Positions 49,817 to 57,542 of a stretch of 64,000 nucleotides of DNA are shown piece by piece. The notes under the pieces are model-generated. The model saw nothing but the letters and a program-made list of their open reading frames with translations, ran no database searches and was not told the DNA's origin. Numbering within the stretch: position 1 is the first letter of the stretch; every line of letters begins with the position of its first letter. Origin of the DNA: Debaryomyces hansenii CBS767. Its lineage: Eukaryota > Ascomycota > Pichiomycetes > Serinales > Debaryomycetaceae. The stretch is from assembly GCF_000006445.2 (NCBI RefSeq), contig NC_006043.2:62001-126000 (forward strand), in the 5' to 3' direction. The position numbers were made by a program, and so were the translations under genes.

Positions 49817-50947
49817 ATGTCAAAGGGAAAGGTTTTACTCGTTCTTTACAAAGGAAACGAACATGCGCAACAGGAACAAAAATTGTTAGGATGTTTAGAA
49901 AATGAGTTAGGTATCCGTGAGTTCATTGAATCGCAGGGATACGAGCTTGTCTGCACTGACGACAAGGATCCCGAACCTTCGTCCACCGTCGACAAGGAAT
50001 TGCAAGATGCCGAAATTGTTATCACCACTCCATTCTTTCCTGCCTACATTACCAGGGAAAGAATCAATAAGGCCCCAAAGTTGAAAATGTGCATTACTGC
50101 TGGTGTTGGTTCCGACCACGTCGACTTGGATGCGGCCAACGAAAGAAAGATTGCAGTTACAGAAGTCACTGGGTCTAATGTGGTTTCTGTTGCGGAACAT
50201 GTTCTTATGACTATGTTAGTTTTGGTTAGAAATTTTGTCCCTGCCCATGAACAAGTCATCAAAGGAGAATGGGACATTGCCGGTGCTGCAAAGGATGAAT
50301 ACGATTTAGAAGACAAGGTCATTGCTACTGTTGGTGCCGGTAGAATTGGATACAGAGTCTTGGAAAGATTAATTGCTTTCAACCCTAAAAAATTGTTGTA
50401 TTACGATTACCAAGATTTACCAAAGGAAGCAATTGACAAGTTAAACCAAGCCTCTAAATTGTTCAACGGTAAGGACAATATCGTTGAAAGAGTTGAAAAC
50501 TTAGAAGACATGGTCGGACAAGCAGACTTGGTCACTATCAATTGTCCATTACATGAAAAATCTAAAGGATTATTCAACAAGGATTTGATCTCGAAGATGA
50601 AAGACGGTGCTTGGTTAGTCAACACCGCACGTGGTGCTATATGTGTTGCTGAAGATGTCGCCGCTGCAGTCAAGAGTGGAAAGTTGCGTGGTTATGGTGG
50701 TGATGTTTGGTACCCACAACCTGCACCAAAAGACCACCCTTGGAGACAAATGCAGAATAAGTACGGTGCCGGTAATGCAATGACTCCTCATGTCAGTGGT
50801 ACTTCATTAGATGCCCAAGCAAGATATGCTGACGGGGTTAAAAGTATTTTGAACAGCTATTTCTCTGGCAAACATGACTACTTGCCAAAGGATGTTATTG
50901 TGATCGATGGTGATTATGCAACCAAATCATATGGCCAAAGAAAGTAA
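49817..50947 (+). CDS. FDH1: NAD-dependent formate dehydrogenase
   Basis: A 376-residue cytosolic enzyme that oxidises formate to CO2 with NAD+. The N-terminal catalytic segment includes [12 protein letters not shown] and the formate-binding Asn121 ([14 protein letters not shown]). The NAD motif is VGAGRIG (172-178), the catalytic Arg is Arg272 in NTARGAI, and Gln302 and His325 form the acid-base pair ([13 protein letters not shown]). The C-terminus is basic but has no SKL-type peroxisomal signal. In methylotrophs it ends the methanol pathway; in non-methylotrophic yeasts it detoxifies formate. Length equals other yeast FDHs. Confidence 0.97.
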
Positions 50948-51215: not shown

Positions 51216-51812
51216 TCAATCGTTCGAAATCTCGGGGTGTTCCTTCAAACAACGTCTCAATGCATCAAGCTTCTTGAAGGTATCAGAGCTCTTTAAGTCT
51301 GAACTTGAGAAAAGTACCGAAAATGCATCCTTGAATTCTCCCCCACATGCCCCACTAGATATTGGCTTCAAAAACTTGTTGCCCCATTTGATTTCGGATT
51401 CATCAGAGCCCTTTTGCAGCTTCTCATCTTTACTTCCTGACAAGCTCTCCTTCGTTTGTTCTGCTTCGTCGTTGGCCGCAGCCTCGGACTGTGTAGTTGG
51501 TGTACTTGATTCTGCGGGAATTTTAGTTTTGACATTTCCTCTCCCCACCGCTTCCTTCTTTGCCTCGTCTTCTTTCTGGTTGCTTCCAGTATTTTCAGCT
51601 ATATTTTTACCCTCCTGAATCTTTTTTTTATCTACCTCATTGTCAATCGTATCTATGGATGTCCAGGCAATTGCTGAAACCAATGCAGCAGCTCCACCTA
51701 AGTAAATGCCAGCTCCGGACTTTGTGCTAGCGGAACGCAGCGTAGAGTAAGTTCTCTTCGACAAACCCTGGGAAAATTGATGTACAGCTTTATTGTTAAA
51801 AATTCTATTCAT
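51216..51812 (-). CDS. Mia40-like protein lacking CPC motif
   Basis: A 198-residue protein with the architecture of yeast Mia40. There is a mitochondrial presequence-like N-terminus (Arg/Ser/Thr-rich, about 1-30), one membrane anchor (GAGIYLGGAAALVSAIAW, 33-50), a charged Glu/Lys-rich linker, and a C-terminal CHCH-like domain. Aligned with Mia40 (EINWDCPCL...GPCGEEFKSAFSC), it reads EIKWGNKFL then SGACGGEFKDAFSVLFSS. The redox CPC is replaced by NKF. Of the twin CX9C, only Cys156 and Cys188 (the outer disulfide pair) remain, and the inner pair is Val166 and Thr178. It cannot be a disulfide carrier of the usual kind. It may be a non-catalytic inner-membrane/intermembrane-space paralogue or a decaying one. 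Start ATG at 51812. Confidence 0.8.
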   Translation of the reverse strand: MNRIFNNKAVHQFSQGLSKRTYSTLRSASTKSGAGIYLGGAAALVSAIAWTSIDTIDNEVDKKKIQEGKNIAENTGSNQKEDEAKKEAVGRGNVKTKIPAESSTPTTQSEAAANDEAEQTKESLSGSKDEKLQKGSDESEIKWGNKFLKPISSGACGGEFKDAFSVLFSSSDLKSSDTFKKLDALRRCLKEHPEISND

Positions 51813-55637: not shown

Positions 55638-57542
55638 TTAAAGGCCAAATAATGCTCTTTTAATAACGATTGGTGGGGTATAAGTTGCTGTTAAGGTATC
55701 AGATTCTGTTGGCTCTGCACTACTAGTCATATCATCCGTAGGTGTAGGGATGGGAGTAGGCATAGGAGTTGGCATAGGAGTAGGGATGACAGTTGGCATA
55801 TTGTCATATCCGATTGCCGTTATAGTCGTTGTTTCTGTTTTTGTTTTTGTTTTTGGACTCTGTTTAATATATTTGGTAGCATATTCGGTTACAGTGACAG
55901 GATCGCAATATCCCCAATATCCCCAGTTATTACCGTTCCAGTCATTACTATCACCTGTTTCAGTTGGAACTGGAACTGGAACTACACATTCGCCGGTGAT
56001 GGTTAATGTTGTTGGTTCGGTTATGGTGACAGTCTTTGGCTCGCATTTTTTATCCTTGCAAGTAGTCAAAGTGATTGTGGTTGGTTCTGGACAATACGTG
56101 ATATAATCAGTAAGAGTTGTATATTGAGTGACTGTTTTTGATGGAGGGCGAGGATGCTTATCTTTTCCGTGGTAGTCACACTTGTCACCATGACGGTTCT
56201 TGCCATGACGGTTACATTGTTTATCATCTTCCTTGTCATCAGGACATCCTGGCTTTGGTTTTGGTCCGTGGTAATCACAATCCTTACCATCATGTCCTCT
56301 ACCATAACGGTTGCATCCCTTATCATCTGGTGCATCGTCATCATCATCATTATCGTCACCACCAGGTGGATGGTAGTCGCACTTGTCACCATGACGGTTC
56401 TTGCCATGACGGTTACATTGTTTATCATCTTCCTTGTCATCAGGACATCCTGGCTTTGGTTTTGGTCCGTGGTAATCACAATCCTTACCATCATGTCCTC
56501 TACCATAACGGTTGCATCCCTTATCATCTGGTGCATCGTCATCATCATCATTATCGTCACCACCAGGGGGATGGTAGTCGCACTTGTCACCATGACGGTT
56601 CTTGCCATGACGGTTACATTGTTTATCATCTTCCTTGTCATCAGGACATCCTGGCTTTGGTTTTGGTCCGTGGTAATCACAATCCTTACCATCATGTCCT
56701 CTACCATAACGGTTGCATCCCTTATCATCTGGTGCATCGTCATCATCATCATTATCGTCATCATCATTGTCGTCATCGTCATTATCATCATCATCGTCAC
56801 CACCAGGTGGATGGTAGTCGCACTTGTCACCATGACGGTTCTTGCCATGACGGTTACATTGTTTATCATCTTCCTCGTCATCTGGATCTCCTGGTTTTGG
56901 TTTAGGACCGTGGTAATCACACTTCTTACCATCACTTCCTCTCCCATAACGGTTACATCCCTTATCATCTGGTGTATCATCTTCACCTCCATTACCAACT
57001 CTTCCAGCACTTGCAGTACCATCATCACTTCCTTGGGTACTTTCAACCCCAGTACTTTCAATTCCAGTACTTTCAACCCGAGTACTTTCAATTCCAGTAC
57101 TTTCAACTCCAGTACTTTCAACTGCTGTAGTACCACTTCCTTCAGCATTTTCATCACTTTCTTCGGTACTTTCAACTCCTTTACCATCATCACTCCCTTC
57201 AGCATCTTGATCACTTTCTTCGGTACTTTGAACAACACCATCAACATTTCCTTCGGTATTTTCAACTCCTGCAGTACTACCATCACTTCCATCACTTCCA
57301 TCACTTCCATCGGTACTTTCAACTCCTACAGTACCATCATCAGTGACAGCTCTCGAAGAAAGCTTACTCCAGCCAATACCTCTCCACCCAAGCTTATGTC
57401 CCTCAACATCCCTACGGTAAATTGAAGTCAACGAGTTGCTATTTCCTTTGTCACCAAGACTTCTCCTGTGTTTAGCTCCCTCTTCATTAGCAACAACTGC
57501 GGCGGCTATACTGAATAAAATCGCGACGTTTTCGAATTTCAT
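55638..57542 (-). CDS. Secreted Cys/His-repeat cell-surface protein
   Basis: A 634-residue predicted secreted protein from the ATG at 57542. Signal peptide 1-18, dibasic Kex2-like sites at 26-27 and 43-44, and a Ser/Thr/Glu region with VESTG repeats (about 140-170). The central array has eight modules C-x11-C-x2-H (CNRYGRGHDGKDCDYH and CNRHGKNRHGDKCDYH alternately) at residues 196-458, separated by poly-Asp and KPKPGCPDDKEDD linkers. A wall-protein-like tail follows (TVTQYTTLTDYITYCPEPTT, TITLTTCKDKKCEPKTVTIT, WGYWGYCDPVTVTEYATKYI) with Met-Pro-Thr repeats. There is no GPI signal at the C-terminus (VIKRALFGL). I do not know the function. The regular Cys/His spacing and acidic linkers suggest metal binding or disulfide-linked wall scaffolding; both are inference. 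Confidence 0.8.
   Translation of the reverse strand: MKFENVAILFSIAAAVVANEEGAKHRRSLGDKGNSNSLTSIYRRDVEGHKLGWRGIGWSKLSSRAVTDDGTVGVESTDGSDGSDGSDGSTAGVENTEGNVDGVVQSTEESDQDAEGSDDGKGVESTEESDENAEGSGTTAVESTGVESTGIESTRVESTGIESTGVESTQGSDDGTASAGRVGNGGEDDTPDDKGCNRYGRGSDGKKCDYHGPKPKPGDPDDEEDDKQCNRHGKNRHGDKCDYHPPGGDDDDDNDDDDNDDDDNDDDDDAPDDKGCNRYGRGHDGKDCDYHGPKPKPGCPDDKEDDKQCNRHGKNRHGDKCDYHPPGGDDNDDDDDAPDDKGCNRYGRGHDGKDCDYHGPKPKPGCPDDKEDDKQCNRHGKNRHGDKCDYHPPGGDDNDDDDDAPDDKGCNRYGRGHDGKDCDYHGPKPKPGCPDDKEDDKQCNRHGKNRHGDKCDYHGKDKHPRPPSKTVTQYTTLTDYITYCPEPTTITLTTCKDKKCEPKTVTITEPTTLTITGECVVPVPVPTETGDSNDWNGNNWGYWGYCDPVTVTEYATKYIKQSPKTKTKTETTTITAIGYDNMPTVIPTPMPTPMPTPIPTPTDDMTSSAEPTESDTLTATYTPPIVIKRALFGL
56357..56997 (-). 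repeat. 67-aa (201-bp) tandem repeats in Cys/His protein
   Basis: In-frame repeats with near-identical DNA. The block starting caccaccagg recurs at 56357, 56558 and 56798, giving a 201-bp period. One unit is lengthened by 39 bp of extra Asp/Asn codons. The near identity suggests recent expansion or homogenisation. Confidence 0.9.

Follow-up and report, generated by a model that had tools for sequence, protein, structure and literature searches.

A Debaryomyces MIA40 paralogue that has lost the CPC motif and the inner cysteine pair and appears to be under purifying selection

Mia40 draws proteins into mitochondria and makes their disulfide bonds; Glu in place of two Phe residues of the pocket (315 and 318) breaks yeast Mia40. 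According to excerpts of the work of Peleh and colleagues, yeast Mia40 has two separable activities, with the CPC motif oxidizing clients and the pocket pulling them in (PMC4951193). The same excerpts describe Mia40-SPS, which imports clients highly efficiently via the pocket without CPC and without oxidation, and a pocket-dead FE mutant that does not fold; structural disulfides are described there as crucial for a working pocket (PMC4951193). With plant Erv1 oxidizing the clients, Mia40-SPS sustains yeast without a redox-active Mia40 (PMC5679390, excerpts). Yeast Mia40 itself enters via TIM23, after which existing Mia40 oxidizes its CX9C core (PMC8069373), and in human Cox17, a CX9C hairpin, the inner disulfide forms first and nucleates folding (PMC5717278), both as stated in excerpts of these papers.

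The window (the whole stretch of DNA analyzed, 64,000 nucleotides) encodes a redox-dead paralogue of MIA40 at 51216–51812 on the minus strand; the ORF list and translation give a reading frame of 198 aa from ATG to TGA. It aligns with the MIA40 of its own genome over nearly its whole length, including the linker, at 37% identity (73/199 columns; E 8e-40), and 13 relatives are 52–98% identical to it. The genome's own MIA40 was the only other match of the paralogue in a protein search of the genome, and phmmer returned five Mia40 sequences of solved structures (E 2.4e-6 to 5.5e-5). A CHCH profile search covering the whole assembly (12.18 Mb in 8 contigs) found three places, including the canonical MIA40 on contig 4 (G000:C4:660865-661614, corresponding to L001 1327-2076, minus strand), a 249-aa ORF that contains CPC and the complete set of four structural cysteines. 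Neither of the two further CHCH places is among the protein-search matches of the paralogue, and membership of another twin-CX9C family was therefore rejected. With the Pfam CHCH profile (PF06747), the canonical protein scores 28.1 bits (cut-off 27.2), and the paralogue goes unmatched at E <= 1. The genome also carries two Evr1_Alr genes, one short and one with an N-terminal hydrophobic stretch, which we read as Erv1-like and Erv2-like, respectively; given the canonical MIA40 and the Erv1-like gene, the disulfide relay is complete without the paralogue. A preliminary description of the locus had identified the ORF as a Mia40 homologue, which the identity to the genome's own MIA40 supports, and had proposed a search for a canonical MIA40 in the same genome; as that copy exists, a sequence error or a lone defective MIA40 is rejected.

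By charge and hydropathy alone, the paralogue has the fungal Mia40 layout of presequence and inner-membrane anchor. Residues 1–33 (51714–51812, minus strand) form a probable mitochondrial presequence that is basic and aligns with the presequence region of MIA40; residues 1–50 contain 6 Lys/Arg and no Asp/Glu. The probable inner-membrane anchor (residues 35–53; 51654–51710, minus strand) coincides with the best 19-residue hydropathy window, which starts at residue 35 and has a mean of 1.51. In the joint alignment described below, the anchor is followed by a charged linker (residues 55–139; 51396–51650, minus strand), over most of which model confidence is low, with 14 basic and 21 acidic residues across positions 51–140. 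The CHCH-like domain (residues 140–195; 51228–51395, minus strand) is delimited by pLDDT and by best structural matches to Mia40. The charge and hydropathy profile agrees with the earlier proposal of a presequence, anchor, charged linker and CHCH-like domain. The Debaryomyces-named relatives and the known code of that group indicate translation by code 12; it reads two CTG codons as Ser25 and Ser132, both outside the CHCH-like domain.

In the linker, residues 55–100 are identical between the genome's own MIA40 and the paralogue at 24/46 positions, compared with 23/56 in the domain, and the stretch from NEVDE-K to KVPAE is conserved between the two proteins as well as the domain is. Excerpted text calls the yeast Mia40 linker functionally irrelevant in part (PMC4951193). 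Elsewhere in the window, a 376-aa gene of the 2-hydroxyacid dehydrogenase family (49817–50947, plus strand; formate-dehydrogenase-like) is convergent with the MIA40 paralogue. A 634-aa ORF (55638–57542, minus strand) has an N-terminus that looks cleavable and Cys-containing units in tandem (CNRYGRG.../CNRHGKN...); a Pfam search found no match for it at E <= 0.001, and its product looks like a repetitive cell-surface protein.

Twelve relatives of the paralogue came from one sequence search and one more (P0133) from a profile search; neither search returned MIA40s, and both are thus blind to distant kin of the paralogue. All 13 are full-length in the protein database (195–200 aa), the nearest named relatives being those of Debaryomyces tyrocola (82% identity) and D. 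fabryi (71%). Both MIA40 and the paralogue occur in D. fabryi and in an MMETSP transcriptome source, and the paralogue P0010 has a transcript record (MMETSP), so that it is transcribed in that yeast. We aligned the 14 paralogue rows jointly with five Debaryomyces-type MIA40 rows. In place of the redox CPC, the window protein has N145-K146-F147 (51372–51380, minus strand): position 145 is Asn in 14/14 paralogue rows, position 146 is Lys (11 rows), Arg, Gln or Ser (one each), position 147 is Phe (8), Ile (4) or Tyr (2), and no row has Cys at 145–147. The inner pair is likewise without Cys in all 14 rows, with V166 (51315–51317, minus strand) aligned to Val (8), Ala (5) and Leu (1), and T178 (51279–51281, minus strand) to Thr (11), Ile, Val and Asn (one each). 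The outer cysteines C156 (51345–51347, minus strand) and C188 (51249–51251, minus strand) are present in 14/14 rows. By comparison, the full CxCL-C9C-12-C9C pattern occurs in 120/120 MIA40 relatives among the matches listed (of 2995). The collected orthologues and their alignment agree with the preliminary description, which had CPC replaced by NKF, the inner cysteines replaced by Val166 and Thr178, and Cys156 and Cys188 remaining. At the level of sequence, the paralogy, the loss of CPC and of the inner pair, and the retention of the outer pair are established.

The first Phe residues of the Mia40 pocket are retained, with F160 in 14/14 paralogue rows and F164 in 13/14 (Leu in P0012), and the next Phe and the later Phe and Met positions of MIA40 are aliphatic (L/I/V167, L182 and L185). 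The earlier claim that fold-defining hydrophobic positions were kept is accordingly correct in part: positions 160, 164, 167, 182 and 185 are all hydrophobic, but three of the five have changed from Phe or Met to aliphatic residues. The hairpin of the paralogue rows is one residue shorter than in MIA40. A structure model of the paralogue has block-mean pLDDT of 81–90 over residues 141–190, and Mia40 is the top structural match, including the C296S/C298S crystal structure 3a3c; a second model (63 rows) has the same helices as the first. With Foldseek alone, Mia40 ranks first (E 0.22, probability 1.00), and nothing was found at E <= 0.001.

In a 55-row tree, built from the 14 paralogue rows, the genome's own MIA40 and 40 MIA40s taken from the 120 listed, the paralogue rows form one clade (support 100/100), which joins the five Debaryomyces-type MIA40 rows in a group of 19 (support 95/94). 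The branching order inside this group has support of 55/0, and the paralogue stem branch measures 0.93 changes per column. This topology points to one duplication of MIA40, in or near Debaryomyces. ORFs of 100 aa or more were compared between the surroundings of the canonical MIA40 (18) and the window (45), with no match at E <= 1e-3; the MIA40 ORF lay across the border of the two compared stretches, was split there and could not match. A tandem or block duplication is rejected on the lack of common neighbors among these ORFs, and the data fit a dispersed duplication, after which the paralogue changed fast at first and then more slowly.

Among the 198 columns of the paralogue alignment, 60 are invariant in all 14 rows. 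Twenty-nine columns are invariant and identical in both the MIA40 and paralogue groups, including W143, G154, C156, G157, F160, K161 and C188, and 18 are invariant within each group and differ between them, including C-to-N145, GG-to-KP149-150, F-to-L182 and M-to-L185. In the domain, the group-specific fixed columns are N145, K149, P150, S152, D172, L173, L182, L185, L189 and I195. The 18 differently fixed columns indicate constraint on a new state or role rather than relaxed remains of the old one. Neutral evolution was simulated on the same tree in 1000 runs, which took the window ORF as the ancestral sequence of the clade and were scaled to the mean observed distance; the simulated window–P0133 distance was 0.55 versus about 0.48 observed, making that branch somewhat too long. 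A mean of 13.6 of the 14 rows gained a stop and stop-free families arose in 0/1000 runs, although the database consists of predicted proteins, so that the lack of stops, unlike the invariant columns, is partly built in. Invariant columns in the simulation averaged 33 and reached a maximum of 53, compared with 60 observed. Both cysteines were kept in 17/1000 runs, or in 26/1000 with stops forbidden. By simple arithmetic, which is weak on its own, losing four of six Cys regardless of pairing leaves a native pair in 3/15 cases and the outer pair in 1/15. C156 and C188 do not stand out from the general level of conservation in their domain. When the window species is compared with D. fabryi, 140/195 positions of the paralogue are identical versus 163/189 of MIA40 (45/56 versus 53/56 in the domain). 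Codon bias is 0.014 for the paralogue versus 0.114 for the genome's own MIA40; the former lies above a composition null of -0.042 (sd 0.022), with 2/1000 draws as high.

As judged from the aligned sequences, these results demonstrate purifying selection on the paralogue at the protein level. The view of the preliminary description, that the pattern reflected constraint and not random decay, is borne out by the failure of the neutral model and by the 13 relatives in which the frame is intact and both cysteines are present; it had named the absence of a canonical MIA40 and frameshifted orthologues as evidence to the contrary, and a canonical MIA40 is present and the 13 relatives are full-length. 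Neutral decay is rejected, with 14 in-frame rows and more invariant columns than the simulated maximum. A decaying pseudogene or a sequence error would account for the lost Pfam CHCH match, the low codon bias and the faster change relative to MIA40; with 14 full-length rows from several sources and the simulation outcomes given above, we consider it very improbable.

The paralogue resembles Mia40/Tim40 (CHCHD4 in animals) in its whole-length homology to the genome's own MIA40, the presequence and anchor layout, the outer cysteine pair, the Trp before the CPC site and the first pocket Phe residues. It differs in having no CPC, no inner disulfide and no C-terminal acidic tail, in its one-residue-shorter hairpin and in the 18 group-specific fixed differences. 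By descent it is a MIA40 paralogue; judged on CPC, twin CX9C and the CHCH profile, the features that define a Mia40 oxidoreductase, it is not one, and we call it a Mia40 pseudoenzyme. As in Mia40-SPS of S. cerevisiae, the catalytic cysteines are absent and the rest of the protein is retained; however, Mia40-SPS is man-made and retains both structural disulfides, whereas the natural protein has lost one and its pocket is changed. The second zebrafish Mia40 copy is, unlike the Debaryomyces paralogue, catalytic. Zebrafish, with Mia40a and Mia40b, likewise has two MIA40 genes per genome (PMC6245507, excerpts). In searches of open-licence PMC literature, we found no report of a natural MIA40 paralogue without CPC, and searches on Debaryomyces together with Mia40, on gene duplication and on mitochondrial proteomics yielded nothing on this gene.

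The paralogue probably has a role that needs no redox chemistry, and we tentatively favor, as a possibility, a membrane-anchored, redox-free receptor or holdase. Of the three roles suggested in the preliminary description (non-catalytic chaperone, Mia40 regulator or inner-membrane tether), any may apply. MIA40 would have duplicated on or close to the Debaryomyces stem, with one copy staying a catalytic Mia40 and the other turning into an intermembrane-space protein that is anchored in the inner membrane and redox-inactive. Imported by the same route as Mia40, with presequence, anchor and hairpin, and lacking CPC, this protein would act by binding alone: the CHCH-like hairpin, shut by a single predicted C156–C188 disulfide, would retain a hydrophobic groove for the non-covalent binding of polypeptides that are unfolded or just arriving, leaving oxidation to Mia40 and Erv1. 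We favor the receptor or holdase for its likeness to Mia40-SPS, which in the excerpts cited imports clients without oxidation (PMC4951193, PMC5679390). The single clade grouped with Debaryomyces-type MIA40s, the retained presequence and anchor layout, the 29 invariant columns common to both groups, the hydrophobic character at the five pocket positions, the Mia40 structures (including 3a3c) as top matches of the predicted model and the P0010 transcript record are all consistent with it. Against it, a working pocket is reported to depend on structural disulfides (PMC4951193, excerpts), one of which the paralogue has lost, and this is precisely the inner one that nucleates folding in Cox17 (PMC5717278, excerpts). 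The counterpart of Mia40 Phe 318 is also aliphatic, which changes the pocket lining, the paralogue changes faster than MIA40, and C156 and C188 do not stand out from their own domain.

Two other readings are serious rivals. The 18 columns fixed differently in the two groups, clustered in the domain, and the length of the stem branch (0.93 changes per column) would suit a hairpin that acquired a different partner, such as one in MICOS or in the assembly of the respiratory chain, and became a new scaffold or tether that no longer binds Mia40 clients; the partner is hypothetical, and the remaining sites follow the Mia40 plan and its hydrophobic character, so that we regard this as somewhat doubtful. 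A decoy or dosage regulator, which we rate as unlikely, would tune the relay by pairing with Mia40 or by competing with it, either for clients or for the shuttle arm of Erv1. Since Erv1 is a competitor of the clients for the pocket of Mia40 (PMC4951193, excerpts), a redox-free pocket would titrate either; the genome has an Erv1-like gene, and codon bias below that of MIA40 is as for a weakly expressed regulator, but GG-to-KP149-150 and the altered pocket residues indicate that the old binding surface is not simply preserved. Residual redox activity via C156 and C188, such as a thiol switch or mixed disulfides, might be suspected from their presence in 14/14 rows; it is highly improbable, as the two lie far apart in sequence, occupy the outer positions that are structural and buried in Mia40, and form no CXC or CXXC motif.

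The hairpin of the paralogue, with the outer disulfide alone (a bond predicted here), would reverse the order described for Cox17 folding. Whether oxidation or non-covalent binding drives import by Mia40 has so far been argued from engineered mutants, and a natural duplicate that lacks catalytic cysteines and is under selection alongside an intact Mia40 would allow the question to be tested on what evolution has preserved. It is conceivable, if rather improbable, that the two Mia40 activities have been divided naturally in Debaryomyces, with a redox-free receptor capturing clients and the canonical Mia40 oxidizing them; such a split would be the natural counterpart of Mia40-SPS and evolutionary evidence for the trans-site-receptor model.
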